Source of the DNA: a virus
IMG/VR virus record: IMGVR_UViG_3300031857_000018
Span: 1 to 64,000 of that record
Direction: 5' to 3' (one strand)
DNA length: 64,000 nucleotides
The notes below the pieces were generated by a model, which was not told the origin of the DNA, searched no databases, and was given only the letters and a program-made list of their open reading frames with translations. Positions 3,658 through 47,629 of this stretch are shown here, one piece after another; the first letter of the stretch is position 1, and every line of letters begins with the position of its first letter. The position numbers were made by a program, and so were the translations under genes.

Positions 3658-6168
3658 TTATCCAAATGAAAAGAATTTCTTTGCATTGTTATTTTCTGGT
3701 AATGAACCCCACCCCATAGCTGCATAAAAGTCATCAAACTTGTTGCTAAGGTCAGATGTGAACATTTTATTGTGGTCTAGATACTGGGCTGCGAATGCTA
3801 CTAGCTCAGGTGGATCCTGATACCCGCGCAATGCTAATGTTTCAAACCCATATGGATTATTCAACATGTAACCCCATTTAATCTTTTCTCCGTCTGATAT
3901 TGGCAATACATCTGTTGTTAGTGTAGATAGCATATCATTGAAATTGATTGCTGCTTTTGCATGTGCGGTGGTACCCTTTTGGAATCCTGTGAATGTTTTT
4001 CTGCCTTTAATATATTTAGACAGTTCCTTAACACTTGAATTCTTCATCACATTCAATACTTCTGACTTGCGAATATTGTTTTTGAAATCATGTATCAGTG
4101 TAGATGTGTCTTGCTTGTTGCGTCCCTTAAGAATGTACCACAATGTTTCTTTCATGATCTTTTTGAAATCCTCCGGGAAACTTGATCTTACGACATCTAA
4201 TCCTTTTACATCCAATTTATCCGTAGGTTTGCCTTCTTTGAAAATAACCCATTGGGCATATCTTTTCTTTGCGATCCACAAACCAGATTTAGCAATGTAT
4301 TCCTGCTTAATTTGGAATCGGTGTGTGTCTGTATTGTGTAATACTTTTGCATATTGATTGTACATGGTGTTTACCGTTTGCTGTATCTCAGATGCAATTG
4401 CATTTGTTTGTTCAATCATGAACTGTTCGTCTTCCGTGTCACAGCCCGGGAAGCGATGTCGAATTAGTGGCTCACTGCTACAGAAAGTTGAATCTGTATC
4501 GGTATAAAATGCAAATTCTGCTTTGCCACCTGATGCATTGATAAAATGATCGGTACCTAATTCTTTTGTATATTGATTGTTAATAACCTTTGCTGAGAAC
4601 TTGATAATACTCTGCCCGGTTGCTGTAATTGCTCCGGCATTATCTAAATCATGGAAGCGGAATGTTTTGAGTCCTAATACTCCATAAAATGAATTGAGCA
4701 ATACTTTCTGCGTTAACTGCATTGCATCATAAAATTTATACTCTTCAGAACCAACAGCAAATGTATCTCGTTTATCTTTAAATATAACACGTTCATCAAA
4801 CCATTTCTCCAGGATCGTCGGTAAGAATCCTCGCTGATCATTTCGATACACTGCGCCGTTGCTGGCAACAGAATAATTGTGGTCTACCAACCAACGTTTA
4901 ACGTCTTGAATATATGTGCCATCAATGAACTGCACTTGTGTTGATTCGGACTTTAACAAGCATTCTTCATTCCAATCTTTGATAACCGTTACTTTGGTTT
5001 CTGGTGAAATGTTTAGTGTCATGATGATGCTTGGATACAGTGATGTTAAGTCCAAGTCATATATCCATTTGTATAAGCCCGGGACAGGTGCCATTACATA
5101 TGCTCCTGCTAACACATCATCCACTGATTCATCTTCTACGAAACGGAACTGCTTGTTTGGTGCCACAAATCCATTGCGTTTCAAATCCACAATAGCAGCA
5201 CCGTCTAGATACTTGGATGCATAATATACATCTTCATATGGAACGTGTCCTTTATGACATATGGTGCGAGCCAAACTGATTAATTGTAGTTTATCATCTA
5301 ACTCATAAACCAAGTCTGTATCCGTCATGTTGTAATATGCAAACTTGTGAATATCCTGAGTAAACAAGGTATCCAAATCGCCATCGTATTCAACTTTGCC
5401 GCGGCCTAACTCTTTTTTAGCAACTGTGTCTAATCGATAGTTAGGAAGTTCTGAGTACGTGAAGTTTTTGTATAATTTCAAGTAATCTAAACTAGATACA
5501 CCAAAAATCTTCCATTTTTCCTTTTTAGGATTGTAATCCACAATTCCAGCCGGACTTAGTTTCCTAATTGCTTGTGCTCCTAACACTTTCTTAGATCGTC
5601 CTAACAAATATGGAATATCATATCCATCTGTATTCCAACCTGTAATTACTGTGGGTTGAATTTCGGCAAATTTGTTAATAAATCTAGTTAAAAGATCTCT
5701 TTCATCGCGAAATATTTCTAGAACATAACCATCGCCTTGAATTTCACGTTCTTTTATGCGATTCTGTTCATCTAATATAAGTACCCTGCGGTCATTACCT
5801 GTTTTATCAAAGTATGCAATAGATGTTATAGCAGTGCGTACATCTTGTATAGTGCTATATCCGTTTTCATCCTTTGCTGTTTCAATATCGAAGAAGAAAT
5901 CGCGGTGACCTTTAGACACCATGTCCGAATCATAGTACAAATCAATCAGTGTTCGTACTTCTTCATTTATATCGGATTCATATGATTTTGGATTATCTTT
6001 GTGATTGCCGGGAACCTTAGTTAATTTAGTTCCGTCTAATGATTGATAATCTCCGTCTGCTGCTGGTAAATATGCATATGGCTGAAATGGAAATTTCTGA
6101 TGACCTACTTCATCATCCCACACGTGCATTATACCGTTTTTGCGGTCATAACCTATTGATTGATACAT
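3658..6168 (-). CDS. 43: Family B replicative DNA polymerase (T4 gp43-like)
   Basis: An 836-aa family B polymerase with intact proofreading and synthesis sites. The 3'-5' exonuclease motifs are FFFDIET (Asp94/Glu96), TGWNTDGYDIPYL (about 176-188) and YYNMTDTDL (about 278-286). Polymerase motif A is DLDLTSLYPS (371-380), motif B is KVLLNSFYG (488-496) and motif C is YTDTDS (555-560), followed by a KKRYAQW region. Length fits T4 gp43 (898 aa) and relatives. It copies the phage genome with the helicase, SSB and recombinase encoded at 11496-15915. Its start overlaps the end of the small membrane-protein gene by 16 nt. A second, family A-type polymerase lies at 19432-20754. Confidence 0.97.
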   Translation of the reverse strand: MYQSIGYDRKNGIMHVWDDEVGHQKFPFQPYAYLPAADGDYQSLDGTKLTKVPGNHKDNPKSYESDINEEVRTLIDLYYDSDMVSKGHRDFFFDIETAKDENGYSTIQDVRTAITSIAYFDKTGNDRRVLILDEQNRIKEREIQGDGYVLEIFRDERDLLTRFINKFAEIQPTVITGWNTDGYDIPYLLGRSKKVLGAQAIRKLSPAGIVDYNPKKEKWKIFGVSSLDYLKLYKNFTYSELPNYRLDTVAKKELGRGKVEYDGDLDTLFTQDIHKFAYYNMTDTDLVYELDDKLQLISLARTICHKGHVPYEDVYYASKYLDGAAIVDLKRNGFVAPNKQFRFVEDESVDDVLAGAYVMAPVPGLYKWIYDLDLTSLYPSIIMTLNISPETKVTVIKDWNEECLLKSESTQVQFIDGTYIQDVKRWLVDHNYSVASNGAVYRNDQRGFLPTILEKWFDERVIFKDKRDTFAVGSEEYKFYDAMQLTQKVLLNSFYGVLGLKTFRFHDLDNAGAITATGQSIIKFSAKVINNQYTKELGTDHFINASGGKAEFAFYTDTDSTFCSSEPLIRHRFPGCDTEDEQFMIEQTNAIASEIQQTVNTMYNQYAKVLHNTDTHRFQIKQEYIAKSGLWIAKKRYAQWVIFKEGKPTDKLDVKGLDVVRSSFPEDFKKIMKETLWYILKGRNKQDTSTLIHDFKNNIRKSEVLNVMKNSSVKELSKYIKGRKTFTGFQKGTTAHAKAAINFNDMLSTLTTDVLPISDGEKIKWGYMLNNPYGFETLALRGYQDPPELVAFAAQYLDHNKMFTSDLSNKFDDFYAAMGWGSLPENNNAKKFFSFG

Positions 6169-7006: not shown

Positions 7007-7795
7007 TTATACTCCTCGTTTAGTGTCAAATGCAATGATATGATCTCTACCTGTCATGTTGTAGCCTCGTTCGGCACACATATCGAATACCAATGGATAC
7101 ATCTTGATAAGCTCTTCTCGGGTGTCACCAGCTGGCATAATATAGGTCTTTTCTTTCGGAATGTCAAGGATTTGTCTCACTTCTTCAATCTCATTTAGAT
7201 TCTTCTCAGTACCATCCCATACTGGCTTGAAATGATAATCTGAATGAAAGTTAATCATTGAATTCATTGCAGTTAGATTCATTCTAAACTTGTTATGTTG
7301 TCTAACCATCTTTTCATCGGTAATATCACCCTGTGGTGTGGGCGTTCCCAATACGGGAATACTATTTGAAAACTTAGGGCTAAGAGATATAAGGCCGATA
7401 GGATAATCGGTCTCAATAAAATGCGAGCCTTCAGTTTCGATCGTAATGAGAATGTCTCGTTCATGTGCAAAATGAGTAAGTTCATTTACCAATGCTGGAT
7501 GCATTGTCGGAGAACCGCCCGTCAACATCATTTCTTTGATATGCGGATTTTCATCGTATATCTTAATGATATCATTAAATGTAAATTGTCCTTTTTCTGG
7601 GTGTATACTTGTGTACCAGGAGTCGCACCAACCACCTTCACCAAAATAGCATCGGTGAGTGCAGCCTGTAGTGCGAACTGCGATTGTAGGTCTACCAAAG
7701 CGCGAACCTTCGGATTGCACACATCGATACAATTCTACAATTGGAAGTGTCTTAGTATAATCTGTAATTCTTTTGTTAGAAGGGGAGGTCGTCAT
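7007..7795 (-). CDS. queE: QueE, 7-carboxy-7-deazaguanine synthase (radical SAM)
   Basis: A 262-aa radical-SAM enzyme that contracts 6-carboxy-tetrahydropterin to 7-carboxy-7-deazaguanine. The N-terminus has the QueE hallmark LYRCVQSEGSRFGRPTIAVR, followed by the cluster cysteines C45-x3-C49-x7-C57. The last cysteine is farther away than in the canonical CxxxCxxC, because of a GEGGW-type insertion. MLTGGSPTMHP is the SAM-binding GGE-like strand. The ATG at 7795 is preferred; in-frame starts up to 7825 overlap the previous gene further. It is the third enzyme of the FolE-QueD-QueE set and shares their direction. The insertion is odd but the family call is firm. Confidence 0.92.
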   Translation of the reverse strand: MTTSPSNKRITDYTKTLPIVELYRCVQSEGSRFGRPTIAVRTTGCTHRCYFGEGGWCDSWYTSIHPEKGQFTFNDIIKIYDENPHIKEMMLTGGSPTMHPALVNELTHFAHERDILITIETEGSHFIETDYPIGLISLSPKFSNSIPVLGTPTPQGDITDEKMVRQHNKFRMNLTAMNSMINFHSDYHFKPVWDGTEKNLNEIEEVRQILDIPKEKTYIMPAGDTREELIKMYPLVFDMCAERGYNMTGRDHIIAFDTKRGV

Positions 7796-8174
7796 CGGTA
7801 TCATGCTCATTACTATTGGTAACATTGTCTAATTTCTTAATTAATTCTGCAAACTGCTTTTCTATAGCTTCTAATCGACCTAACAGATAGATTAAATCGC
7901 TAGAAGGTGGAGTTGTTGTTGTCTGAACGGTAGGTGTCTCTTTACCAAAATATTCATCTAAGAATGATATTGGATATGTTGCTACTCGATTATATTCTTC
8001 ACGTTGCCGTTCTGCTGGTAAATCAGCATAAATAACATGAATGCCTTTCTCCTTAGCTGCATTGTATACTTTTTGTCCTATGCCGGTTTCCCGGGATGAT
8101 TGTCCTCGATAATCGTATAAGGATACATATTGTTCATTACTCTTCATAACTTGCTGAGTTTCGTTCGTGTTCAT
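7776..8174 (-). CDS. Unknown protein ending in an SSB-like DDDLPF tail
   Basis: A 132-aa protein (or 123 aa from the ATG at 8147) lying between QueD and QueE and overlapping both. The N-terminal part has YVSLYDYRGQSSRETG and a YPISFLDEYFG segment that I cannot assign. The C-terminal third has a coiled-coil-like helix (LIYLLGRLEAIEKQFAELIK) and ends in acidic DTDDDLPF. That ending copies the protein-binding tip of bacterial single-stranded DNA-binding proteins (DDDIPF), yet no OB-fold SSB is recognisable. It may therefore bind host factors that dock on SSB, or be a divergent DNA-binding protein. Confidence 0.75.
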   Translation of the reverse strand: MNTNETQQVMKSNEQYVSLYDYRGQSSRETGIGQKVYNAAKEKGIHVIYADLPAERQREEYNRVATYPISFLDEYFGKETPTVQTTTTPPSSDLIYLLGRLEAIEKQFAELIKKLDNVTNSNEHDTDDDLPF

Positions 8175-8601
8175 ATACTTCTACTTTTGTAGCTCGTACT
8201 CTGTTATCAGTTTCTAATTCAAGAAAAGCATTGATATTATCATATAAATATTCTGCAAATCTTTCACAACCAGTTGCTGGTAATATTCGTAATTGTATGA
8301 TACCTTCTACATCCATTTGTTTAAATAAAGTTAAATGAGGATCATCTTCAGCTATGATTGTAGTATGGTCTAGTAGGTATGCAAAATAATCTTTTGGAGA
8401 CATACCATTCATTTTAGTCTTTGCTCTTTTCATACCTCCAAAGTCAAACACCCAGTTGCGATGATCTAGATCACCTTCAAACCATACTCGAAATGATACT
8501 GCGTAACCATGCAGGAAACGACAATGAGTACCATCTGCTCGCCATTGACGGAAACATGTTGAGTAACCATCAAATAATTTTGTGCTGCTATATTTTGCCA
8601 T
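8137..8601 (-). CDS. queD: QueD, 6-carboxy-5,6,7,8-tetrahydropterin synthase
   Basis: A 154-aa T-fold enzyme converting dihydroneopterin triphosphate to 6-carboxy-tetrahydropterin. Features are CFRQWRADGTHCRFLHGY (Cys27 four residues before His31, as in the C-x3-H catalytic/zinc motif), NWVFDFGGMK, LLDHTTIIAEDDP (Asp78-His79) and the closing VEVYEHERNSASY with the substrate-anchoring Glu. HGY replaces the usual HGH. The start overlaps the FolE stop (TAATG), showing tight coupling to the preceding enzyme of the pathway. Confidence 0.92.
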   Translation of the reverse strand: MAKYSSTKLFDGYSTCFRQWRADGTHCRFLHGYAVSFRVWFEGDLDHRNWVFDFGGMKRAKTKMNGMSPKDYFAYLLDHTTIIAEDDPHLTLFKQMDVEGIIQLRILPATGCERFAEYLYDNINAFLELETDNRVRATKVEVYEHERNSASYEE

Positions 8602-9299
8602 TAGTAACCTTTTACAAATTGATAAAACTCTGATCGGGCGTTACCATCATCTAAGAATGCGCCGGAAAGTTTAGCTGTCTTCATGGAAGCACCACCATGT
8701 TTAACTCCGCGACATTGCACACAGTTATGAGTTGCTTCAATCATAATTGCTACACCTTTATTGTTCTCAATAAGTTCGTCAATTGCATGATGAATTGCAA
8801 CTGTCAATTGTTCTTGAATTGCACCTCGCCGGCCAAAATGTTCTACTACTCGATTCAGTTTGCTCAAACCGATAACATTGCTATTCTCACCTGGAATATA
8901 TGCTACATGCACATTACCCATAATTGTCTGATGATGATGTGAGCACATTGATGTTAAAGGAATACCTCCTTCAAACACGATTCCATCATAACCATCACTA
9001 GGAAATGCTGTGATTCCTGACATTGGATTGTATCGACCTGCCCACAAATCATTTACATATGCTTTTGCTACTCGGCGAGGAGTATCTGCAGAATTTGGAT
9101 CTGTTCTCCAGGCAACACCCAGTGCTTCTAGAAATTGGCCATAATGATATGCAGCGTCTGCAATAATTTCTTGCTTTTCTTCGTCGGTCAATGTTGCGTC
9201 TGGTCCAAAGATTGCTTGTTTAACTGCTAATTGAGTTGAGATACCATTAGCAAAACCAGATTTAACTAGTTCTAGATTTTTCTTATTAGTTTCTGTCAT
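8601..9299 (-). CDS. folE: FolE, GTP cyclohydrolase I
   Basis: A 232-aa type I GTP cyclohydrolase, making dihydroneopterin triphosphate from GTP, the first step toward 7-deazaguanines. The zinc and active-site segments are MCSHHHQT (Cys119, His121/122) and HNCVQCRGVKH (Cys193 region), with IGLSKLNRVVEHFGRR between them. Length matches bacterial FolE. It begins the folE-queD-queE group. The 32-nt gap before it (9300-9331) holds only AT-rich sequence with an AAGAAA ribosome-binding site. Confidence 0.96.
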   Translation of the reverse strand: MTETNKKNLELVKSGFANGISTQLAVKQAIFGPDATLTDEEKQEIIADAAYHYGQFLEALGVAWRTDPNSADTPRRVAKAYVNDLWAGRYNPMSGITAFPSDGYDGIVFEGGIPLTSMCSHHHQTIMGNVHVAYIPGENSNVIGLSKLNRVVEHFGRRGAIQEQLTVAIHHAIDELIENNKGVAIMIEATHNCVQCRGVKHGGASMKTAKLSGAFLDDGNARSEFYQFVKGY

Positions 9300-9331: not shown

Positions 9332-9547
9332 TTATTCGGCTTTCAAAGTTTTTGTGCCTTTTTTATGGGCTGGTTCAAAGGGACAATGTCTGCAACCGTT
9401 ACCACAGCAAGTTCCTCTGCGTTGATGATATGATTCAGTCATTACTCGATATCCATCTTCATAGTAAAAGTCCGTAGGAAGGAGCTTGTTGCCAAACTCC
9501 CTCACGAACTGTTGCTGTATCCAATCTTTTGATGCCGGTTGTATCAT
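9332..9547 (-). CDS. Small cysteine-rich DUF5522-like protein
   Basis: A 71-aa protein with the segment GTCCGNGCRHCPF (about residues 45-57), which matches the short cysteine-rich DUF5522 family of unknown function, common in bacteria including Bacteroidota. The four cysteines and a histidine could bind a metal ion. Its start overlaps the ribonucleotide reductase stop (ATGA), so the two are co-translated. Function unknown. Confidence 0.8.
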   Translation of the reverse strand: MIQPASKDWIQQQFVREFGNKLLPTDFYYEDGYRVMTESYHQRRGTCCGNGCRHCPFEPAHKKGTKTLKAE

Positions 9548-11400
9548 TTTATTTCACACGCTCCGCCTGCACAAGCTAATTCGCCTGACAGGTCTGTATT
9601 ATCATCTAACTCAATTACTCGACTTAAATCAATGTTATTCAAAGATTTCATCATGGTGTTGTATGTTTCCTCAGTACAATCTTCAAATGGAGCTTGTGTA
9701 TAAGTTCCTCCATTATATGGTAAAACTGATAGGCCATTATAATGATCCCGGTTTGACCACATCCACTCACCTGCTAAGTCCCACTCATCATCTTTTAATG
9801 ACACGGTTGCTGACACGTTATGAGTATTGTTACCTGTGCGATGTCCCGGTTTAACCCATTCCAAGTGCACCTTTTTGATACGATCTAATAATTGAAAAGG
9901 AGATTCAAAACGCATAATTGCGCCTTCTGGGGCTTTTTGTGGAATTGAAATAACTGCTGTATCATGTGGACGGAAATATTCATCTTCGATAAGCTCTGGA
10001 TGATTGATTGACAAGTAAGAATAAATTGCTTCGTTCTTTCCTACACGAATACGACGAATATAATAATCATTGTGCCAAGCATGAATACCTGATGATGTTC
10101 CTAATGCCAATGATGTTGTTCCCGCAGGTTTAACCGTTGTGGTACGAGCTGATTTGTTGATGCCAATGAGCTCAGCAACACGAGCGTTTTCTTCTTTAAC
10201 TGCTTTTGCTGCCGCTTTCATGTCATATCCTAATACTACCCCAGATCCAATACCTGTCATTGATACACCAATAAGTGCATCTTTCTCAGTTGTGCGTTTC
10301 CACACAGGACGAAGATAATGGAAATCAGTGTATCCTGCTTGAAGTGTTCCAATGAATGCTGCGGCTTTTACACGCATTTCTAGATCTTCTTGTGATTCAA
10401 TGTCAGATGCATTTACTTCACATAGGTTACAGAATTGGAATGGTCGTAGTGCAATTTCGCAACATGGATTAGTTCCCCAATCTTTATCATTTGTAAGATA
10501 GATTCCTGGTTCACCTGCTCCTGACAATTCAACACGTTTCCAAAGATCCATGAAAAATTCTTTTGTCAGTTTGTGACGCATTAAAGTTGCTGAGTTGTTA
10601 GCACGTCCTCGTTGTGGGTTGTTTTCCCACCAGTTGCCTGATTTACATGCAATCATTTCTTCATCATCTGCTGAGAATAAAGAGATAAGAGCCGCTCTAC
10701 GAATTCCGCCGGCTAAAACTGCATCTGCAACGTGACATACCATATCGTGCACTTCAATTGCAGTTAATTTGTCGCCATCTTCTTTTGCATCCAAGATACC
10801 TGCTAATTTAATCAAGCATTCTTTAAGTGGTTGCGGGCCTGGAGCTTTTCCTCCCGATGTAACAAGACGAGCACCTTTTGCACGAATGTCTGAAAAGTCA
10901 AACACAAATGTAGATCCGCCTTCAAAATAAGATTTAACAAGTGCTTTAACTGCATCCGCCCAGCCTTCAATTGAATCTGCAATTAGAAATCTGCGTGTTC
11001 TTTTAGGATTTGGTTTACGAATCTCAGGTAGTTTCTCTACATGGTGTGTTTGCACTGAGTAACCTACTCCTGTACCGCCTAATAACAAAAACATTGCTTC
11101 ACCAAATGCACGATGATCGTCAATTGGCAAATATGCACAGTTATAAATTCGGTTAGGGGAGATTTCAATTGGTTTTCCGCCGAATTGCAAACTACGCATT
11201 GAAGGTAATACTTTTTTGTCATACACAAATGTATACGCATTGCGAATTTCCGATTCTAACTTCGGATATTTTTTAATGTGCATGTTCATGTTTCTTGTAA
11301 CTAGTTCTTCCCAGGTTTCTCGCCGATTGAGTTCAGGAATGTACTTGGCGTATTTCATATACACCGTAATTTCGCTTAAAATTTTGTTTGAAATCTCCAT
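9544..11400 (-). CDS. nrdJ: Class II (adenosylcobalamin-dependent) ribonucleotide reductase
   Basis: A 618-aa monomeric class II reductase, probably acting on ribonucleoside triphosphates to supply dNTPs. Seen are the N-terminal PSMRSLQFGG and NCAY (Cys88), LLLGGTGVGYSVQ, NPCCEIALRP (311-320) with the thiyl-site cysteine, TVKPAGTTSLALGTSSGIH, and the C-terminal redox pair in CAGGACEIK (610-618). It is shorter than the Lactobacillus enzyme (739 aa), as phage forms are. No partner subunit is present. Activity depends on B12 from the host or surroundings, and re-reduction probably uses the phage thioredoxin. An ACGAGA site precedes the start. Confidence 0.93.
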   Translation of the reverse strand: MEISNKILSEITVYMKYAKYIPELNRRETWEELVTRNMNMHIKKYPKLESEIRNAYTFVYDKKVLPSMRSLQFGGKPIEISPNRIYNCAYLPIDDHRAFGEAMFLLLGGTGVGYSVQTHHVEKLPEIRKPNPKRTRRFLIADSIEGWADAVKALVKSYFEGGSTFVFDFSDIRAKGARLVTSGGKAPGPQPLKECLIKLAGILDAKEDGDKLTAIEVHDMVCHVADAVLAGGIRRAALISLFSADDEEMIACKSGNWWENNPQRGRANNSATLMRHKLTKEFFMDLWKRVELSGAGEPGIYLTNDKDWGTNPCCEIALRPFQFCNLCEVNASDIESQEDLEMRVKAAAFIGTLQAGYTDFHYLRPVWKRTTEKDALIGVSMTGIGSGVVLGYDMKAAAKAVKEENARVAELIGINKSARTTTVKPAGTTSLALGTSSGIHAWHNDYYIRRIRVGKNEAIYSYLSINHPELIEDEYFRPHDTAVISIPQKAPEGAIMRFESPFQLLDRIKKVHLEWVKPGHRTGNNTHNVSATVSLKDDEWDLAGEWMWSNRDHYNGLSVLPYNGGTYTQAPFEDCTEETYNTMMKSLNNIDLSRVIELDDNTDLSGELACAGGACEIK

Positions 11401-11495: not shown

Positions 11496-12863
11496 TTATC
11501 CGAAACTTCCGCCCATATCTTTGAATCTTTGAGCTAAATTTTTCTTCATTATGTTTTCTCCGGTTTTCATGACCTGAGTTGTTTGCTTACCTTGGGTAGT
11601 CTGCGGTTCGAAGAACTGAAACTGACCGTTATTCGTGTTAATTTTACTAGGCAAAGTGATACCATCTGGACCAAAACGATTCTTGATAACATGACCTCGA
11701 CCTGTGCCTGACATTTTGTCTTCTACTTTTCTGGAAAGTGACATTAAGAAGTCAGCAACCATCACTTTACCATATGATGACGCAATCTTGTCAGCTTCAA
11801 TAACATCCTCTTCTAACGCACTTCGACCTGCCTGTGATGCGGTCCATACTGGAATGCTATACTCGCCTGCCATTCCGCGTAACTCCTCGTACAGTTCTTC
11901 TAATGCCTCGTGCTTGTCCTTTTTTGCATTGATTTTCAACAAGTCACCGTAATCCACAATAACCAGATCTGGTTTCTTGCCCATCATCATAGTTTTTTCT
12001 AAATGAGCTTTGAGTCCCATTACTCCTACTGACTTAGTTGGAAAATACTTCACAATCAAGTCACCTCGTAACTGCTGCATCTTTTCTTCAACCGTTTCCT
12101 GATGATTCTTTAAACTCTGAGCATTGATACCTGTTAATACAGAATCATAGCGTTGACCTACATAGTTTTCGTTGAGCTCTAGGGTATAATGAATTACAGT
12201 GTGTCCTGCTTTGATTGCATTTGAACCAATATTAATCAGCAACCAAGATTTACCAATACCCGCAGGTGCCATTACTACTCCTAACTCGCCTTCGGCTAAT
12301 CCGCCATCCATTAAATCATCAATAACGTCCCATCCGGTTGTTATGGTATGTCTAGCGGCTTCTGAATAACGAGCTGATATATTGAGTTTATAATCTAATC
12401 CAATATTGGTGTCGGCGCCAGCTTTCATAGCGTTATCCATATTAGTTTTAATTTGATCGTAATTGCCTTGTTGCAAAAGCGGAACCGATTCCATGATTGC
12501 TCGTTTAATTTCCTGATTCTTACAAAATTTAAGAATCTCATCTTTAACGAATGTCAAGTCATCAGATTCCATAAAACGGAATACATCTTTAAGCTGTTCT
12601 AAAATTGCAGCTTTCAATATAGACTCAGGACCATCATCACTTAGTTCAGTCAATTTAACCTTTAATACATCTTTGGATGGGGGTGCTTTATATTCACGGA
12701 AATGTGTTAATATTACTTCTAATAGCCAACTATTTGCATCCGATTCAAAATAATCGGCTTGTATAATGTCTGAAATTTGTTGTAAAAATAATCTATCCGT
12801 AAACATTGCTGCAATCACTTTCACTTGAAAGCCCCAACCATATTCACTTAACTTGTCTGTCAT
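11496..12863 (-). CDS. 41: Replicative DNA helicase (DnaB / T4 gp41-like)
   Basis: A 455-aa hexameric 5'-3' helicase of the DnaB/gp41 family. Residues 1-150 form the helical N-terminal domain. The RecA-like motor begins at TTGWDVIDDLMDGGL, with Walker A APAGIGKS (199-206), Walker B KPDLVIVDYGDLL (about 297-309) and SQAGRSALEE followed by SLSRK as the later DnaB motifs. It unwinds the fork for the family B polymerase. It follows the RNase H-like gene after 37 nt and is closed by the terminator at 11444-11475. No primase is seen in the window. Confidence 0.93.
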   Translation of the reverse strand: MTDKLSEYGWGFQVKVIAAMFTDRLFLQQISDIIQADYFESDANSWLLEVILTHFREYKAPPSKDVLKVKLTELSDDGPESILKAAILEQLKDVFRFMESDDLTFVKDEILKFCKNQEIKRAIMESVPLLQQGNYDQIKTNMDNAMKAGADTNIGLDYKLNISARYSEAARHTITTGWDVIDDLMDGGLAEGELGVVMAPAGIGKSWLLINIGSNAIKAGHTVIHYTLELNENYVGQRYDSVLTGINAQSLKNHQETVEEKMQQLRGDLIVKYFPTKSVGVMGLKAHLEKTMMMGKKPDLVIVDYGDLLKINAKKDKHEALEELYEELRGMAGEYSIPVWTASQAGRSALEEDVIEADKIASSYGKVMVADFLMSLSRKVEDKMSGTGRGHVIKNRFGPDGITLPSKINTNNGQFQFFEPQTTQGKQTTQVMKTGENIMKKNLAQRFKDMGGSFG

Positions 12864-12900: not shown

Positions 12901-13965
12901 TTATTTGTTATGAGTTTGCATTGCAAATGCATTTAATGATAACCAGGTGCTGTTTAGCCACTCTGGCAAGTTCTTCATGGTAGTCCACATTTTGTCTTCC
13001 ATAAACAATCTTTGAAATTCCATTTTGTTCATTGCAGGAATTGGTTGCTGCATAATTCCTCGAATCGTGCTACAATTCTGTGCCGGAATGTTTAACAGTT
13101 TAATGTTCATGAGCTGATAATTTTTATCAATGGTGTCGTAATTATCCAACACCTTTTGAAAAGGCTTACCTTCTTTTAACAAGCGCTTGTCTTCACATTT
13201 TGCATGCAATGCTTCTAGTGTGAATTCTGCATCATCTACTAGTTCTGGAAATGTTTTTAATATAGTCTTAGGACCAAATCCGTCTACACCAGGAATGTTG
13301 TCTGAGTTATCGCCGGTGAATGTTCTGTACACCACATAGTTTTTTGGGTGTACCCCAAACTCTTCAATAAGTGCAGCTTCGTCATACATCTTCTTTTTAA
13401 TCGGAGACCAAACCTGCAGAGTAGGACTAATTAGTTGATAGAAATCTCGGTCTGTGGATACAATTGTAACCTTCTTGCTAATATCTGCATACATTTGTGC
13501 GATATATGCAATAGTGTCATCTGCCTCAATTCCGTCAATTGCTAAAAAAGTAACAGGCAAATTATCCAGGTATGAAACAAGTCGTGAAAACTGATATCGC
13601 ATTGCTTCTTGTTCGTCTTCGATAGTAGCAAATTGCTGATGATCGTGTCTACGCAATCTGGTTTTATTAGCACGATTGCCTTTATAGTCCCCATAAATCT
13701 TTTTTCTGCGGGCACTACCACCTCTACCGTCAAATACGATTACAACTCGACTAGGTCGAAAATCTCGTATTGCTTTACCAATAGAAAAAAGGAATCCTGT
13801 GATTCCTCCAATATGTTCGCCATCTTCATTTGTGGATGGAGTTGCTCCAAAAGCTCTGATAAAGGTATTCAGTCCGTCGAATACCATGATGTGGTCATTA
13901 ACATCCGACGGACCGTTTTCCTTTTCTTCTTGTAACTTTTTGAATAGCTGTTGATACTTATTCAT
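12901..13965 (-). CDS. rnh: 5'-3' exonuclease / flap nuclease (T4 RNase H-like)
   Basis: A 354-aa FEN/PIN-domain nuclease that removes RNA primers and flaps from lagging-strand fragments. Metal-binding acidic motifs are MVFDGLNTF, VVIVFDGRGGSARR, GIEADDTIAYIA, VSTDRDFYQL and TGDNSDNIPGVDGFGPKT, the last being the helix-hairpin-helix DNA-binding loop. This is the complete family order. The start overlaps the recombinase stop (TAATG), so it is coupled to RecA, and the helicase gene follows. Confidence 0.94.
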   Translation of the reverse strand: MNKYQQLFKKLQEEKENGPSDVNDHIMVFDGLNTFIRAFGATPSTNEDGEHIGGITGFLFSIGKAIRDFRPSRVVIVFDGRGGSARRKKIYGDYKGNRANKTRLRRHDHQQFATIEDEQEAMRYQFSRLVSYLDNLPVTFLAIDGIEADDTIAYIAQMYADISKKVTIVSTDRDFYQLISPTLQVWSPIKKKMYDEAALIEEFGVHPKNYVVYRTFTGDNSDNIPGVDGFGPKTILKTFPELVDDAEFTLEALHAKCEDKRLLKEGKPFQKVLDNYDTIDKNYQLMNIKLLNIPAQNCSTIRGIMQQPIPAMNKMEFQRLFMEDKMWTTMKNLPEWLNSTWLSLNAFAMQTHNK

Positions 13966-15128
13966 TAGCCTTCTTCGTCTATAACTGTTTCATCAATTAT
14001 CACATCATCAATTCCGCCATCAATACCTGCTTGGTATTTGAAAATGTATGCGTCACAGATTCTGTTATACAATCGATCTCGTACTTCTTTGCGTTCGATT
14101 ACTTTCTCAACAAAGTTTTTTGATTGAAATTTAATTTCGCCAAACACCTCACCTGTATCAGCATCAACGTCTTCTAAGGTGTAATGTGCTCCGGCCTGTT
14201 TAACCAAATCAAACTTCTTCATGATTTCTAACCAACCACCATAATTGTCAATTCCTGAATCATAATAGATATCATAATTCACTTTGCGGTGTGGTGGTCC
14301 CATACGATTCTTCACAACCTGCACTTCAGTTTTACTTCCAACTACTTGTTCTACTCCGTTAATCTTTGCTTTGATCATTCCGGTGTTCTTTAGTCGCAAT
14401 CTAACTGATGCATGGAATGGAATAGCTTTACCACCTGATGTGGTCCAAGCATCTCCAAATGAAACACCTAATTTAGTTCTCAACTGATTGGTGAAAATCA
14501 AACAAATATTTTCTCGAGCAATCCAGTTAGTAACCTTACGCATTGCTTTTGATAAAATGATTGATTTGCTAGTTGCATAACCATCCTTGTCGTATTCGGC
14601 TGCCATTTCAATTTTTGTGGAAGCACCCATTACTGAATCCACTACAATCGTAACTAAACGATCTTTGTTGGATTTGCGAACACCTTCTACAATTGTCTCA
14701 ATGGTTTCGAAAATCTCTTCGATAGTCTCTAATGGAACATACAGCATTGTTTTTAAATCACAACCAATTGCTTGTAAAAACTCTGTGCTAGTAGCTGACT
14801 CTGTATCAATATACACTGCCAATCCACCTTTCTTCTGAGTTTCTGCTAATGCGTGTGATGCTAACAATGATTTTCCTGATGCTTCTAGCCCGGTAATTTC
14901 AGTTATCCGACCTACTGGGAAGCCTCCGTTCGGTCGGTTTGAAATTGCCAAATCGAGTGAATCGCAACCTGACGAAATCCAATCTTTAACATTGCTTGGT
15001 GCGTCGTCATCGCCATCCAGGAAGAATGCAGTTTTTAATGCTTGACCTTTGAATTGCTTGTTAATGCTATCTGCTAAGGTGTTTGCTAACGCATCTTCCA
15101 GTTCTAGTTTGCTTTTACTCTTTGCCAT
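13965..15128 (-). CDS. uvsX: RecA-like recombinase (T4 UvsX-like)
   Basis: A 387-aa strand-exchange protein. The RecA core has Walker A GLEASGKS (80-87), YIDTESATS, the Walker B-like strand VTIVVDSV, and the LIFTNQLRTKLGV...TTSGGKAIPFHAS stretch, which contains the loop 2 DNA-binding region typical of RecA. The C-terminus is acidic. T4-like phages use this protein for recombination-dependent replication and repair with gp32 and gp46/47; all but gp47 are recognised here. A strong AAGGAG site precedes the ATG. The gene lies 10 nt downstream of the SSB. Confidence 0.95.
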   Translation of the reverse strand: MAKSKSKLELEDALANTLADSINKQFKGQALKTAFFLDGDDDAPSNVKDWISSGCDSLDLAISNRPNGGFPVGRITEITGLEASGKSLLASHALAETQKKGGLAVYIDTESATSTEFLQAIGCDLKTMLYVPLETIEEIFETIETIVEGVRKSNKDRLVTIVVDSVMGASTKIEMAAEYDKDGYATSKSIILSKAMRKVTNWIARENICLIFTNQLRTKLGVSFGDAWTTSGGKAIPFHASVRLRLKNTGMIKAKINGVEQVVGSKTEVQVVKNRMGPPHRKVNYDIYYDSGIDNYGGWLEIMKKFDLVKQAGAHYTLEDVDADTGEVFGEIKFQSKNFVEKVIERKEVRDRLYNRICDAYIFKYQAGIDGGIDDVIIDETVIDEEG

Positions 15129-15138
15129 TTATAACTCC

Positions 15139-15915
15139 TTAATTGAAAAGATCATTGAATGCAGACGAAACATCATCTACTTTTGTCGCCGTAGGCTTCG
15201 AAGCTGATTTAGCTGGTGCAACTGCTGGTGTTTCTTCTTCGTCATCTGAAGCTACATCAGAATCTGCATTTTCTGGATTCATCCATTCTGTTAATGCTTG
15301 TTCTAATTCTTCATAAGTTGGCTCAGGAAAGATATCCGTGATTTGCGGTTGATTCATGATTTTCTCTGCAATTGCTTTGTCTTCAGTTGCAGGTTGAGTG
15401 TTTGGCTTAACACGAATTGCTGTCTTAGGAAATGCAGCACCTTCTGCTGGTGTGAATTCTACATCGATATCACGACCATTCATCAAATCCGTAATGTCAC
15501 CATAATCTGGATCTGAGATGATAGAAAGAAGTTCAGTGTAGATTTGTTTTCCAAAGCCCCAAAACTTAACTCCTTCTGACTCTTTTCCTCGCACGATAAC
15601 AGGAACATAAGTTCTCATTTTAGGCTCGATTTTACGACCCATGATCCATTCATCTTTGTCGCCTGTTTTCTTGAGCTTGTCAGAAAATTCAACAATTGGA
15701 TCTGCGTTTCCGAAAGTGATTGGAGATAGCATTGAACGCTTACCGATATCGTAGTGAAAATACAATTCCAAGAACGGATTGTCTTTGCGATGTACATAAG
15801 GTACGATTCGGATTCTAGTTTTACCTGCTTCAGGTTTCCACAAATTTTGTTTTTTGTCATCAGATTTGTTCAACTGATTTAGTTTCGCCTTAATTGCATC
15901 TAAGTTAAGTGCCAT
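15139..15915 (-). CDS. 32: gp32-like single-stranded DNA-binding protein
   Basis: A 258-aa protein with the architecture of T4 gp32. It has a short basic N-terminus (about 1-25) of the self-association type, an OB-fold core (about 26-190) with LWKPEAGKTRIRIVPY and KFWGFGKQIYTELLSI, and a long acidic, Ala/Pro-rich C-terminal arm (about 215-258) ending FNDLFN. The gp32 zinc cysteines are not obvious. A strong AAAGGAAAG site precedes the start. It heads the SSB-RecA-nuclease-helicase run. Confidence 0.88.
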   Translation of the reverse strand: MALNLDAIKAKLNQLNKSDDKKQNLWKPEAGKTRIRIVPYVHRKDNPFLELYFHYDIGKRSMLSPITFGNADPIVEFSDKLKKTGDKDEWIMGRKIEPKMRTYVPVIVRGKESEGVKFWGFGKQIYTELLSIISDPDYGDITDLMNGRDIDVEFTPAEGAAFPKTAIRVKPNTQPATEDKAIAEKIMNQPQITDIFPEPTYEELEQALTEWMNPENADSDVASDDEEETPAVAPAKSASKPTATKVDDVSSAFNDLFN

Positions 15916-16010: not shown

Positions 16011-16514
16011 TTAAAATAAAAAATCGTATATTGTTTCGGTAGTTATACCATGTTTTTGTGCTAATGCTTCATCCTGAATATCCACGGTTTTTAAATCACC
16101 GTCTTCTTCAAATACTACTGTAAAATTAATTGTGTCAGAACCCACTTTCAAATCACAATCAAATTCAATGTCAGACACTAAGCGTGTTTGATCATATGCA
16201 CCAGTTGGATCATTTTGACTGGCAACATCTTGTTTGATGTCATTGATGATGTCTCGAAATGTATCTTTTGTGTCCGGAGTGGAACCTTGAAATGTCAAAC
16301 TAACAATACCAGCAATATTAGTATCATAATCAGCACGGTTAATGTGAAGTTTAAAGTTGTTAGGATCTACTCGCAAGTTACCTGTTCTAGGATCGCGGTT
16401 AGCTCCACTATCAAATCCTAATTTATTTTCTAAGTCATTTAAATCAACTTCGCGCAGATTCTTAGTACCAAATCGACGCATATTTTCTGCTAGGATGTTT
16501 TCTAGTTTTTTCAT
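16011..16514 (-). CDS. Unknown protein with a capsid-targeting-like leader (167 aa)
   Basis: Not recognised beyond its first 20 residues, which are identical to those of the next protein upstream (16522-17364) and read M-K-K-L-E-N-I-L-A-E then NMRRFGTKNL. The leader ends NLRE-V, a (L/I)-x-E site of the kind cut by T4 gp21 prohead protease (after Glu22). The remainder is acidic, with two beta-rich halves. By analogy with T4 internal proteins it may be packaged in the head and trimmed. That is inference. Confidence 0.75.
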   Translation of the reverse strand: MKKLENILAENMRRFGTKNLREVDLNDLENKLGFDSGANRDPRTGNLRVDPNNFKLHINRADYDTNIAGIVSLTFQGSTPDTKDTFRDIINDIKQDVASQNDPTGAYDQTRLVSDIEFDCDLKVGSDTINFTVVFEEDGDLKTVDIQDEALAQKHGITTETIYDFLF

Positions 16515-16521
16515 AGGTATC

Positions 16522-17364
16522 TTAACTTAGTTTAATATTCTTTAATGCTGCATACTGTTGTTCTTCATTCTGTCGCGATTTGATATATTGTGTAGTTGTA
16601 ATCATACCTTTAGCAAACGCATGATTCCATAAGTCAACCATCTGGCCTTCTTCTTTAATCCACCACATCACACTTTTTTTGTATTTTGAATAAAATGCTT
16701 CATTGACTGTGATTAAATCTTTGGTTGTTTTTATTTGTGTGATTAGTCCCCATAATAATGGAACATTGGTACTAAAATCAGGAAAGTTTCCTGGGGTTTC
16801 AAATGATTTCTTAAACTTATCAGCCATTTCCATTGCTTTTTGTGTAGAAATGGTACTCATTGATTGATCTTTAAATTGCATTCGATTGACTAATATATCC
16901 TTCACTGAAAATTTTTGTGCTCCAGCGTTATTTGTATTATAAATCGTACCTGATGATAGATTTGGATCTAATTTGCCCCTATAGATGTTGGTGTCAGTGT
17001 CAGTAATAGTTTTAACTTGCACATTGCCGTTAATATCGACAATGCATTGTCGTTGATATCCTGCTGAATTATCTAAATGAAATGCTGGCTCGATAAATAA
17101 TGCCTGTATATTATGTTCAGCATCTTGTTTCTTTTCCCAATCTCCTCGATCAGCCATGTTAATGTTGAATTCACGCAACCACACATATTCCGGTTTAGAA
17201 AAATAAGTTTTAAATGTTTTGAATAACATTGCAACTTTTACTAGAAATGGATTAATCGAATTATCTTGGGTTGTTGTATCTGATGGGTTGTTTTCGGCTT
17301 CGTGTAGATTCTTGGTACCGAAGCGACGCATATTTTCTGCTAGTATATTTTCTAGTTTTTTCAT
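16522..17364 (-). CDS. Unknown protein with the same N-terminal leader (280 aa)
   Basis: Shares residues 1-20 exactly with the protein encoded just downstream, then diverges completely. The leader ends NLHE-A (after Glu22), a good prohead-protease site. The body has FLVKVAMLFKTFKTYFSKP and a C-terminal helical part (KSVMWWIKEEGQMVDLW) with no known motif. The two genes are 7 nt apart. Duplication of the leader onto unrelated bodies suggests a delivery tag. Confidence 0.75.
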   Translation of the reverse strand: MKKLENILAENMRRFGTKNLHEAENNPSDTTTQDNSINPFLVKVAMLFKTFKTYFSKPEYVWLREFNINMADRGDWEKKQDAEHNIQALFIEPAFHLDNSAGYQRQCIVDINGNVQVKTITDTDTNIYRGKLDPNLSSGTIYNTNNAGAQKFSVKDILVNRMQFKDQSMSTISTQKAMEMADKFKKSFETPGNFPDFSTNVPLLWGLITQIKTTKDLITVNEAFYSKYKKSVMWWIKEEGQMVDLWNHAFAKGMITTTQYIKSRQNEEQQYAALKNIKLS

Positions 17365-17376
17365 AATTTACTTTAC

Positions 17377-17781
17377 TTATTTAGAAAAACGGTATCCGTA
17401 ATTGCTGGTATCTCCGGCTTGGATTGAATGTGCGTGTTGCAACATACGATTAAGATTATTTCTTACATCTCGATAAGTTCCTTGCCATCCGCTATATGTT
17501 TTTGAATATGGATATAATTCTAAAAATGCATCTATAAAATCCATGGTAGTCGCACTTCCGGGCGTTTTATCTTTATAGATCGATAACAAATCCATCACAT
17601 CATTTTTAAACTCAGCCATATCAATACGAGCTCGTTTTATTCTAGAATAGTTTTGTTCTAGTTTAGTTAGAAAACTATCTTGTATTTTTTGATCTGCTTC
17701 GGCATCTAACCCATCTGTTTCACCTCGTTGAAATGGGGTTTGATATTCGTCTTCGTTTAATAAATGTTTTAATTTTAACAT
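17377..17781 (-). CDS. Unknown 134-aa protein with leader-like N-terminus
   Basis: The start MLKLKHLLNE-D resembles the short basic/hydrophobic targeting peptides of T4 internal head proteins, with a possible LNE cleavage site after residue 10. The rest is helical and charged, without a recognisable domain. It lies 12 nt upstream of the 280-aa leader-bearing protein. An ATATTTATAT box sits 17 nt before its ATG. Confidence 0.7.
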   Translation of the reverse strand: MLKLKHLLNEDEYQTPFQRGETDGLDAEADQKIQDSFLTKLEQNYSRIKRARIDMAEFKNDVMDLLSIYKDKTPGSATTMDFIDAFLELYPYSKTYSGWQGTYRDVRNNLNRMLQHAHSIQAGDTSNYGYRFSK

Positions 17782-17798
17782 AGTTATTCCTATTACTT

Positions 17799-17808
17799 AT
17801 ATAAATAT
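17799..17808 (-). promoter_or_regulatory. Late-promoter-like ATATTTATAT box
   Basis: Ends 17 nt before the ATG at 17781 and overlaps the stop codon of the upstream gene. Confidence 0.5.
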
Positions 17809-18197
17809 CAATGCCAAGAAAATTTCTTGAAAAATACCAGATTAATAACACGATATCCATCATCATCCGTTAAAATGAATGAATTCTGATATGCTGACCA
17901 ATCTAATTGATATGTCTTATCTAATACACCATTATTCACTGCTCGAATCACTTCATTTAAAGCATTTACCGTGTACAGCGTGTTTGTTTCTTTTTTACGG
18001 TGGATGCTAATAGTATTTTGTCCTCTGCGTCCTGAGTCAATAGCATTGTATGTGCAATACAAGTTATCAGATACTTCTGCATTGGAAAACACAAATATTC
18101 TGCGTTCCGGAATTTGGTAGTTTGTTTGTATGTATTCTGTGATTATGTTTAAATCTGTACGGTGCGCAAAGGTGCAAAGTAGCTGAGTCTTTACCAT
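17808..18197 (-). CDS. Hypothetical protein, 129 aa
   Basis: Not recognised. The N-terminus (TQLLCTFAHRTDLNIITEYI) looks like an alpha/beta domain, and no signal or membrane segment is present. It overlaps the 414-aa gene upstream by 7 nt, so the two are probably translated together. Confidence 0.7.
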   Translation of the reverse strand: MVKTQLLCTFAHRTDLNIITEYIQTNYQIPERRIFVFSNAEVSDNLYCTYNAIDSGRRGQNTISIHRKKETNTLYTVNALNEVIRAVNNGVLDKTYQLDWSAYQNSFILTDDDGYRVINLVFFKKFSWH

Positions 18198-19435
18198 TCA
18201 TTTTCCTCATTTATGTCGACGTCACTTAAGTCAATTTTATCAGCGCCAATAGCCTTTTCAATTATTCGTATTTTACCTGCATCTATCACAACATATCGAA
18301 AATCTCTAGTAACTCGTATTCTGTCTTTTCTAAACACAATGAATTGTAAATCATTGCCTACGATAGAATCAACTGCTTCTTGCAAATCTGTTTCCAATGC
18401 TTCTGGGACGCGTACGTATTTTAAACGTCGCAATTCTGCATTGATATATGTTATATCTTGACTGCCGTCGCCAATTGGTTTTATTACAATATTACCATCG
18501 GGTGTTTTAGTTAATGGTTCAATTGACATTTCAATTGGTGTTGCATTTGGTCCTCGTAGAATGACATTGGTATAACCTTGTATGTCTGAATTTAATGCGT
18601 TTGCTTCTCGATAAAACTGCATTAAAAACTGTTTGTCTTTCATGTTCAAGTTACCTGCTAAAATAAAAGCACGACGGTCATCTAAATATGCAATTGAACT
18701 TAGTAATTCTTCATTAAAATATTTATGGAAATCAAATTTTGGATTTTCCATTGTGCCTCTTAGCTGATCTAATCGTTTCAGGGTGGTTACAATTTCATCC
18801 CAAAATTTAAATCGAGTAACACTGCCTTTAGTTCCTAATCTGATTGATTTTGCGTTGCCTTTTCCTCCGGTATAATCTTTTATTTCATAAGATTGACCAT
18901 TTGCTGTCATATCAAAAGATGTAGTACCACCATTAATTTGTGAAGTATTAATTATAGTAGCTAATAAAATTTCACCTTTTCCTAATCCTTTTGGTTCAAG
19001 CTTGAATAAATCATGGCTTAATCCATTTCTAAAGTCTATAGTATTCAATGCTTCTTCAGAAACGCCGTTTTGAGAATATAATAATGATGCAAATTGCATA
19101 CATTGATCATAACGCAAATTATTTAAAAACTTTAAAGTAATATCATTTGCTTCTGTAGGCAATAATCCTAAAAATTCTCGAAATTCATCAATTTTACCTG
19201 CTCGAACAACTGCAGCTTCCAACATTTTATTTTCAATAGAATCAAATTGTATGGCTTCTGCAATAACTTGTTTGTTAGAACCTTGTGCTCGCTCAACAAT
19301 TTGGCGTGCGTCATCGGCTGATATATTGGCTACTTCTAAAAGAACATGATATAGTATTTCATAATCCTTAGCATTAGTAGGATAACCTTTCGGTAATCGA
19401 TAACACCATTCTGTTAAAATTAAATCAATGTTCAT
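18191..19435 (-). CDS. Unknown 414-aa protein with a possible PD-(D/E)xK-like core
   Basis: I cannot name this protein. Around residues 150-200 it reads GLGKGEILLATI, then SFDMTANGQSYEIKDYTGG and SIRLGTKG. The Glu, a later Asp and the E-x-K are spaced as in PD-(D/E)xK nuclease folds, which often also have a Gly-rich strand and RLG. The rest is helical and charged. The start lies inside the family A polymerase gene's stop (ATGA overlap), suggesting coupled synthesis with that polymerase. A nuclease role is a weak inference; a virion protein is equally possible. Confidence 0.7.
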   Translation of the reverse strand: MNIDLILTEWCYRLPKGYPTNAKDYEILYHVLLEVANISADDARQIVERAQGSNKQVIAEAIQFDSIENKMLEAAVVRAGKIDEFREFLGLLPTEANDITLKFLNNLRYDQCMQFASLLYSQNGVSEEALNTIDFRNGLSHDLFKLEPKGLGKGEILLATIINTSQINGGTTSFDMTANGQSYEIKDYTGGKGNAKSIRLGTKGSVTRFKFWDEIVTTLKRLDQLRGTMENPKFDFHKYFNEELLSSIAYLDDRRAFILAGNLNMKDKQFLMQFYREANALNSDIQGYTNVILRGPNATPIEMSIEPLTKTPDGNIVIKPIGDGSQDITYINAELRRLKYVRVPEALETDLQEAVDSIVGNDLQFIVFRKDRIRVTRDFRYVVIDAGKIRIIEKAIGADKIDLSDVDINEENEW

Positions 19436-20754
19436 AACGTGATAGTTTTCATTTTACTATAAATATGTCCGGCTTTTGTTTTTACCGGGAAATTGCCTTG
19501 TTCTAATACGTGCTTGATTGCAGGTATTATGTGTTGTGCTTCTGCAGTGGGAACATCGAACAACACGGAATCATAAGTATACAATACCATGCAGGTTTCA
19601 TGTCCTTCTAGCAGTGTTTGACATTGCCGTAACTTTTGCACCGATACCTCAGTTTCAACGGCTTGCAAATAATAATTAAACAGCTTGTTTGCTGTCATGT
19701 TTTTCACTGTGTCTGATGTTATTGGTCTTTGCAGTATGGGTGTTTTTATACGTCCTTTAGCTTTCCATTGTCTCCACAAATCATACACAAACGTGTTTAC
19801 TTGCTGAAAGAATGGTATAGATAAAAACTCAGTATCAATACCTCCATACAACAATCGAAAAGTTATCTGCTTGCTTTGTTCATATTGTTCCTCAGTCAAT
19901 TCTGTCGTGCTAAAATAAAATCGCCCAAAGTATTCATGCACAGATCCCGCAGGCAATGCATATCCAATTAATCGGGCTATTAATCTAACGTGGTATGCAT
20001 CAAAGTCCATTTCTACCAAAGCACCATTATCAAATCGACTACAAAATGCATCGCGGGTACCATCTTCTTTGTTCATTGCAGCAAAATTAAATCCTCGATA
20101 TGCATTGCTAGGTCGTCCTGTTACAGTATGATAATTGTAACTTGAGTACACTTTGTTCTGTGTTATTAAATCTGGCATTCTGAACGTGTCGGTTACTGAC
20201 AACCCTGCAGATTCAATTGCAGCAAATGTTTCTGGATATGTTGCATTGAATTGTAAATACGAATCCGTTAACTTTGCGTTCATACACATTGGCCAGGCAT
20301 AATGTCGAATTTTCTGACACATTGCTAAATGTTGTTGCAATGGCACTACTGCATTTACTTGTGCCAATGACGAATGTCGGCGCCAATAAAATGTATGTGC
20401 CGCGGTAGGATAATAAGACTCATCATATGCTTCGCCGTAAGTGTACCACCACAAAGTTTTTACATCCCATACGGCAGCGTTTCCTCCGATTTGAAGCCAG
20501 GCCTTTTTATCATGAACAAAGATATTCTGCAATGCAAGAAACCTCGGCAGATGTTCAGGAAAGCCCCTTAGTTGTTCAGTATGTCGGAATGGCACAATAC
20601 GTTCTACATCATCTTCGGTATAAACATATAAAGCAATTACTGGATTCTGAGTAGGGTGCAATGCTGGACTAGAAAAAATAGGTACTACTAGGGTGCGTTT
20701 ATCTGCCACACATTGTAATAACGCGTCAATTTCTTCTACATGATCCAGTACCAT
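19432..20754 (-). CDS. Divergent family A DNA polymerase-like protein
   Basis: A 440-aa protein whose C-terminal 240 residues follow the Pol I palm/fingers plan. It has HTVTGRPSNAYRGFNFAAMN (TGR-x-S...N-x-x motif, about 209-228), motif A VEMDFDAYHVRLIARL with Asp250, motif B SKQITFRLLYGG with Lys295, Phe299 and Tyr303, and motif C VLYTYDSVLFDV with Asp395. Both catalytic aspartates are kept. The sugar-gate Glu of motif A is His255, the O-helix Arg is missing, and the HDE of motif C is YDS. The N-terminal part could be a worn proofreading domain without catalytic acids. It coexists with a full family B polymerase, so a specialised or repair role is inferred. Confidence 0.82.
   Translation of the reverse strand: MVLDHVEEIDALLQCVADKRTLVVPIFSSPALHPTQNPVIALYVYTEDDVERIVPFRHTEQLRGFPEHLPRFLALQNIFVHDKKAWLQIGGNAAVWDVKTLWWYTYGEAYDESYYPTAAHTFYWRRHSSLAQVNAVVPLQQHLAMCQKIRHYAWPMCMNAKLTDSYLQFNATYPETFAAIESAGLSVTDTFRMPDLITQNKVYSSYNYHTVTGRPSNAYRGFNFAAMNKEDGTRDAFCSRFDNGALVEMDFDAYHVRLIARLIGYALPAGSVHEYFGRFYFSTTELTEEQYEQSKQITFRLLYGGIDTEFLSIPFFQQVNTFVYDLWRQWKAKGRIKTPILQRPITSDTVKNMTANKLFNYYLQAVETEVSVQKLRQCQTLLEGHETCMVLYTYDSVLFDVPTAEAQHIIPAIKHVLEQGNFPVKTKAGHIYSKMKTITL
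19458..19466 (-). promoter_or_regulatory. Late-promoter-like ATATTTATA box inside the polymerase gene's 3' end
   Basis: Ends 22 nt before the ATG at 19435, the same spacing as intergenic copies, although it lies within coding sequence. Confidence 0.4.
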
Positions 20755-47374: not shown

Positions 47375-47620
47375 TTATTTTGAATGCATTGTGCGAATAT
47401 GTTGCATATATGCTGCGTTTGCGTGTTGTTGTCGTTTTAGCACACTTGGCTTAATGAATTCTTTTCGATCTTTAGTTGCCTCTAACACTCCAGACATTTT
47501 TACTTTGCGTTTCCATGTTTTAAGTGCGGCTGCTAAATCTTCTCTAGTGCTCCCCGGTACATGCACTGCCATTGATTGACCGGGAACAATCATTTGATGT
47601 TGTTTTTGTTTTTTACTCAT
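47375..47620 (-). CDS. rpsU: Ribosomal protein bS21 homologue
   Basis: An 81-aa phage-encoded bS21. After a 22-residue extra N-terminus, LAAALKTWKRKVKMSGVLEA and RKEFIKPSVLKRQQ align with bacterial bS21 (LKRFKRxxEKxGVL...R...FxKPSxxRxR). The end AAYMQHIRT matches the Bacteroidota type, including the tyrosine (Tyr71) that in flavobacterial ribosomes lies near the anti-Shine-Dalgarno sequence. It may replace host bS21 in ribosomes during late infection. It sits in the head operon and is followed by its own terminator. Confidence 0.8.
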   Translation of the reverse strand: MSKKQKQHQMIVPGQSMAVHVPGSTREDLAAALKTWKRKVKMSGVLEATKDRKEFIKPSVLKRQQHANAAYMQHIRTMHSK

Positions 47621-47629
47621 ATAACTGGT

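Follow-up and report, generated by a model that had tools for sequence, protein, structure and literature searches.

We identified a 129-aa gene that pairs almost perfectly with the divergent family A DNA polymerase divPolA1, and sequence conservation, structure models and analogy make it probable that the two proteins act as an accessory DNA polymerase for short gap filling, a 'split Pol I' with the 129-aa protein as second subunit. Both genes lie on the minus strand of the window, a stretch of 64,000 nucleotides (positions 1 to 64,000) of the 169,328 bp virus record IMGVR_UViG_3300031857_000018. The polymerase (440 aa, ATG start) occupies 19432–20754, and its near-obligate partner, a beta-rich candidate grip or single-stranded DNA (ssDNA) subunit, 17808–18197. 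The plus strand at 19432–20754 is full of stops and holds no such ORF. The original prediction had placed a second, divergent family A polymerase at exactly these positions, beside a full family B polymerase, and it is borne out both in this and in the residues it named (TGR, D250, H255, K295, F299, Y303, D395 and S396), though the ORF is on the minus strand. The family B enzyme, the regular gp43-like replicase of 836 aa, is encoded at 3658–6168 on the minus strand (Pfam; PHROG 262, E = 8e-175).

As a single sequence, the 440-aa protein matched Pfam DNA_pol_A with E = 1.7e-6 and 27.7 bits, which falls under the curated cut-off of 34.3 bits; PHROG 17 was matched with E = 6e-9. A phmmer search of the PDB with the single sequence gave no match, and only the family profile succeeded, recovering Klenow with E = 1.9e-9, a result confirmed with a 90-sequence profile. 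Profile–profile comparison of the family with five phage PolAs gave 99.2% probability. Judged from these alignments, homology to family A is beyond chance. The AlphaFold2 model (90 relatives) had a pLDDT of 93.5 and a pTM of 0.91, and its best Foldseek match in the PDB was Klenow 1kfd (E = 2e-18, TM 0.76 on the query); the 50 best PDB matches listed were all DNA polymerases. Profile, AlphaFold2 model and Foldseek all point to a predicted Klenow-type palm and fingers. The original prediction named a lacking structural match to the Pol I palm and fingers as its refutation, and the match obtained here leaves it standing.

The protein belongs to divPolA1, a family published in 2024 with a protein of Flavobacterium phage immuto as type member (Yutin et al., PMC11348598), so its kind was already known. 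The text on the family describes a kept palm, a lost thumb, a dead exonuclease domain, a regular DNA polymerase of family A, B or C elsewhere in the genome and replication genes downstream, and as to function goes no further than 'likely involved in replication' (PMC11348598). The immuto protein and the window polymerase share 30.1% identity over 90% of their length (tblastn, E = 2e-52), which establishes full-length homology. A separate regular DNA polymerase was found in 16/16 divPolA1 records (PolB in 11, full-length PolA in five), the window's being the PolB described above. The catalytic residues of the palm are conserved, the thumb is truncated, the 3'-5' exonuclease domain lacks its acidic residues (all detailed below) and conserved replication genes lie downstream. 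The divPolA1 genomes described in that text span 155–190 kb (PMC11348598), a range that the window's own record of 169 kb fits, and nothing in the window polymerase excludes membership as the family is characterized there. All features of the published family are thus present, which makes the window polymerase an added member of an established family. The lost thumb, the dead exonuclease domain and the 2024 family description were absent from the original prediction.

Among 50,697 phage records, a collection from which the published reference genome LR796625 is absent, full-length divPolA1 was found by tblastn in six, namely four Flavobacterium immuto records, Microcystis phage Mel-JY01 and a 484-kb uncultured phage, which represent only three independent lineages; the remaining matches were partial and weak. 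IMG/VR held hundreds more relatives, and most divPolA1 relatives are metagenomic fragments. The copy in the 484-kb phage (LR756508.1) had no IMG/VR relatives by its own peptide patterns; this phage carries a PolIII-alpha-like bacterial gene and two PolB ORFs together with divPolA1 (47415–48068 and about 260600–266900). A 190-aa palm fragment surrounded by unrelated ORFs was observed on a Flammeovirgaceae MAG contig (L387, CAJXAT010000086.1, 7977–8547); the contig gave no match to the 129-aa partner, and we treat this piece as a fragment, relic or assembly chimera. Our additions to the family are hundreds of IMG/VR contigs, the Microcystis isolate, the 484-kb phage, invariant His and Tyr substitutions, a subgroup of 336–339 aa and the 129-aa partner.

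Conservation was counted over 246 distinct divPolA1 sequences. Residue reading and the family alignment place the TGR motif at residues 212–214 (Klenow 'TGR', R668; 20113–20121), motif A at D250-F-D-A-Y-H255-V-R (Klenow D705 to E710; 19984–20007), motif B with the O-helix at residues 291–304 (Y291, K295, F299, Y303, G304; 19843–19884) and motif C at Y392-T-Y394-D395-S396 (Klenow QVHDE; 19567–19581), all on the minus strand. D250, H255, Y303, Q364, Y394 and D395 were present in 246/246 sequences, D252, K295 and G304 had one exception each (for K295, kept in 245, an ambiguous residue X) and F299 (Klenow F762) was kept in 243. Both metal aspartates and the Lys, Phe and Tyr of the fingers are therefore retained as originally predicted, and the predicted replacement of the motif A Glu710 by His extends to every relative. 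Because the catalytic core is near-invariant in these relatives, down to about 25–30% identity, divPolA1 is almost certainly an active enzyme under selection, as judged from this conservation. Position 291 (Klenow R754, which contacts the dNTP phosphate) is Tyr in most members, including the window's, and Arg in some. With H255 and Y394 invariant, the changes E710 to His and H881 to Tyr are thus family traits and the distinctive changes of divPolA1. The Ser in place of the motif C Glu is present as predicted; the reading of it as a sign of unusual chemistry does not stand, since the phage PolAs CRP-3, HMO-2011, SPO1L1 and Eleri have HDS at this motif, and the E883 to Ser/Ala change of divPolA1 is of the same kind as theirs.

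The spacing between a conserved 'IExxG' helix (IESAGL in the window) and the TGR motif is 23–41 residues in all 246 sequences, compared to 171 and 216 in the full-length phage PolAs of SPO1L1 and of immuto itself, and in the model of the window polymerase the stretch from residue 187 to 216 contains no pair of helices. By this difference in spacing, and in the model, the thumb is missing. The N-terminal residues 1–165 (20260–20754, minus strand) can be aligned, if loosely, with the 3'-5' exonuclease domain of Klenow and have lost its catalytic acids: I26, S28, W86 and C146 stand at Klenow D355, E357, D424 and D501, where motifs II and III (W86, C146) were placed partly by visual inspection of sequence alignments, not by superposition of coordinates. 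Across the family, position 86 is W, L, M, F or I and position 146 mainly C or A. The domain is thus a putatively dead proofreading domain without proofreading residues, in accordance with the published family description (PMC11348598). Three marine IMG/VR contigs (L361, L375, L379) encode divPolA1 of 336–339 aa from which nearly the entire exonuclease-like domain is absent, and the core of divPolA1 is therefore palm plus fingers; these copies are among the smallest family A polymerases of divPolA1 type seen here.

Phage PolAs of the HMO-2011/CRP and SPO1 types are the closest canonical sequences (99.2% in the profile–profile comparison above). Unlike divPolA1, these enzymes retain the thumb, E710 and H881 together with an N-terminal region of full length, annotated in HMO-2011 as a 3'-5' exonuclease, and their motif C HDS reads YDS or YDA in divPolA1. 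The divPolA2 proteins of barbaviruses resemble divPolA1 as divergent, thumbless family A proteins beside PolB; their N-terminal domain is unrelated and their gene context variable, as far as the text of PMC11348598 describes them. No similarity was detectable between the divPolA1 profile and divPolA2, a weak negative with single sequences on one side. Kinship with divPolA2 or with T7 RNA polymerase (RNAP) was rejected for want of profile similarity, the latter at an hhalign probability of 0.1%, likewise a weak negative with a single sequence on one side; the comparison with T7 DNA polymerase has the same scope. The hallmarks of TV-Pol, a minimal family A polymerase of mobile elements, are a thumb of two helices and the finger motif RxxxK (PMC2579912); divPolA1 has neither, the R being Tyr in most members.

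The 129-aa gene was present in exactly the same six of the 50,697 phage records as full-length divPolA1, with two different seeds and E values up to 1, whereas control genes of the same cluster were found in 1,868 (5' nuclease) and 145 (SSB) phage records. In immuto, the two proteins are gp001 (YP_010114413.1) and gp002 (YP_010114414.1). In the forward direction, the 129-aa gene was encoded at 97/97 divPolA1 loci with enough flank. In the reverse direction, with the aligned 129-aa family as query and a minimum of 2.5 kb of upstream sequence, divPolA1 was found at 41/42 loci, including marine groups not seen before; the lone exception has only 2.8 kb upstream. The 129-aa protein is also the better conserved of the two, with 37–38% identity between the window, Mel and immuto lineages against 26–29% for the polymerase, and has the invariant core CTF ... 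HRKKE.NTLYTINALN. Its AlphaFold2 model (pLDDT 94) has the order beta-alpha-beta-beta, hairpin, alpha, beta-beta and is vaguely ferredoxin-like. Foldseek against the PDB gave no significant match (best E = 0.24), and Pfam, PHROGs and PDB profiles contained nothing convincing; because the fold matches nothing in the PDB, a DNA-binding role is a guess. Mirror-tree co-evolution was mixed, with the highest partial correlation for the 129-aa gene in two clades, not including the window's, and no fusion of the two genes was present among the ORFs at hand. The linkage does not prove contact between divPolA1 and the 129-aa protein. The text of PMC11348598 makes no mention of the 129-aa gene, and on that textual basis the partner link is a new result.

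Downstream of the pair on the minus strand follow genes for a gp32-like ssDNA-binding protein (SSB, 15139–15915), a UvsX/RecA-like recombinase (13965–15128, assigned by blastp to the Mel-JY01 and immuto recombinases), a separate 5'-3' nuclease of the Pol I N-terminal/FEN type (12901–13965) and a DnaB-like, gp41-type replicative helicase (11496–12863). This order, polymerase – 129-aa gene – SSB – UvsX – 5' nuclease – helicase, is shared by four lineages with only 25–31% polymerase identity, including the 484-kb phage, and at loci with flank SSB and UvsX were present in 97/97, the nuclease in 96/97 and the helicase in 94/97. The window record also encodes a DnaG-like primase (65354–66298) and an ATP-dependent ligase; a DnaG-like primase (PHROG 47) was found in 13/16 divPolA1 genomes and was absent only from three incomplete records of 110–123 kb. 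Between polymerase and partner, the window has a 414-aa gene (18191–19435, minus strand), originally proposed as a coupled, possible nuclease gene. The coupling and the nuclease-like signature are upheld: its start overlaps the polymerase stop (ATGA), as it does at 98/112 loci of the window clade, and D175 and K186, both invariant, form together with an acidic residue close by a PD-(D/E)XK-like pattern, for which Pfam, PHROG and PDB searches gave no support. It is confined to the window clade, very divergent even there and without a relative among the 50,697 phage records; it was rejected as functional partner and is regarded as a clade-restricted passenger, the constant partner being the 129-aa gene.

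Several further genes were observed around the module. A ribonucleotide reductase with a match to the B12-dependent (class II) insertion domain adjoins it (9544–11400, minus strand) and is 69% identical to its counterpart in Microcystis phage Mel-JY01. Three ORFs at 16011–16514, 16522–17364 and 17377–17781 (minus strand) have common N-terminal leaders (ILAENMRRFGTKNL or RLKHILAE types), and the same leader types recur in G000 at 87031–87339 (plus strand), 97669–98088 and 98116–98577 (both minus strand). The six leaders, attached to unrelated bodies, look like capsid-targeting leaders of T4-like internal head proteins with [LI]xE cleavage sites. QueE (7007–7825, E = 1e-49), GTP cyclohydrolase (8601–9299, E = 7e-61) and a weak, below cut-off TGT/DpdA-like match (25–1323, E = 4e-5), all on the minus strand, likely constitute a 7-deazaguanine DNA modification set.

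We propose that divPolA1 is a phage Pol I without thumb or proofreading in which the palm and fingers active site would still work, and that the 129-aa protein would supply, as second subunit, the hold on the template or primer duplex usually provided by the thumb. The pair would make short DNA stretches from dNTPs, while PolB, or a full PolA, would copy the genome; an accessory role is suggested because divPolA1 persists whichever polymerase family does the bulk copying. Its most likely job would be to fill short gaps once the neighbouring 5' nuclease has removed RNA primers; alternatively, it may extend recombination intermediates on gp32/UvsX-coated DNA. Taken together, these two jobs are reasonably likely, and they are preferred over de novo priming, which we rate as unlikely, since these genomes normally encode a DnaG-like primase and the module itself includes a Pol I-type 5' nuclease. 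The proposal is also weakened by the Tyr that most members have in place of Klenow R754, and by T4, which fills gaps with gp43, so that it is not evident why a second polymerase would be needed.

The 129-aa protein was proposed as grip candidate by analogy with CCPol-MP and PolA-SSB enzymes. The SCCmec polymerase CCPol depends for ssDNA binding on MP, a small beta-rich partner that enables it to prime (PMC7581432), and in the related PolA-SSB pairs the N-terminal domains are truncated (PMC10061031). The divPolA1 locus shares with them a family A domain with a truncated or degenerate N-terminal exonuclease region, an adjacent gene for a small beta-rich protein that is hard to recognise, and a nearby helicase. 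This layout would also suit a two-component primase-polymerase in which divPolA1 and the 129-aa protein start strands de novo, the absent thumb leaving room for the initiating nucleotide; in de novo-initiating family A enzymes, Bebel et al. saw a shortened last thumb helix. Such an activity seems unlikely. Priming is already covered by the DnaG-like primase in the window's own genome and most other records, for which we lowered the idea that the pair replaces a primase. CCPol and the PolA-SSB polymerases, from mobile elements of Bacillota, keep a full polymerase domain including the thumb as well as E710, have an OB-fold partner and go with D5/COG3378 or DUF927 helicases, whereas divPolA1 has no thumb, a His at E710, a DnaB-like helicase, usually a separate DnaG-like primase and a partner without recognisable fold that is not OB-like by Foldseek, its modelled strand and helix order not being that of an OB barrel. 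A pair of novel design, in which a small protein of unrecognised fold replaces the thumb and which starts or re-starts DNA strands in the course of phage replication independently of the DnaG-like primase, is a similarly slim prospect; if true, it would be a phage counterpart of the SCCmec CCPol-MP primases, not homologous to them.

The remaining explanations are less probable than gap filling by the pair by a wide measure. With E710 replaced by His in every member, the lost steric gate could make divPolA1 an RNA-making or ribonucleotide-tolerant polymerase, and its motif C (YDS/YDA) departs from HDE, with T7 RNAP having HDS. HDS is usual in phage DNA polymerases too, the profile comparison with a single sequence on one side showed no relation to T7 RNAP, and the 50 best PDB matches listed were DNA polymerases only. 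A His at E710 would not on its own point to ribonucleotides as substrates: it is bulky, so that the 2'-OH could still be excluded, and F762 is kept almost throughout (F299). We regard this activity as improbable. About equally improbable is a polymerase for lesion bypass or for modified templates of 7-deazaguanine DNA, a link raised in the original prediction. The candidate modification genes described above speak for it, and the absent proofreading fits bypass, but DpdA-type modification is post-replicative, and QueE was found in only 10/16 divPolA1 genomes, the six without a match including all Mel-clade records and LR756508; the base-modification link is thereby unsupported and was rejected. 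Least probable of all is a catalytically dead structural or regulatory replisome subunit, for which the lost thumb and exonuclease functions and the non-conserved R754 would speak, because a non-catalytic role imposes no such constraint and the polymerase site should have drifted as freely as the exonuclease residues did, whereas all of its residues that bind metal, and most that contact the nucleotide, are near-invariant in hundreds of divergent copies.

The near-obligate 129-aa partner is the first concrete and cheap handle on divPolA1 function. Should the pair be active, it would illustrate how a family A polymerase can dispense with its thumb; it would also either account for the maturation of lagging strands in these phages, by way of a split Pol I, or represent a second, independent origin of priming by PolA enzymes.
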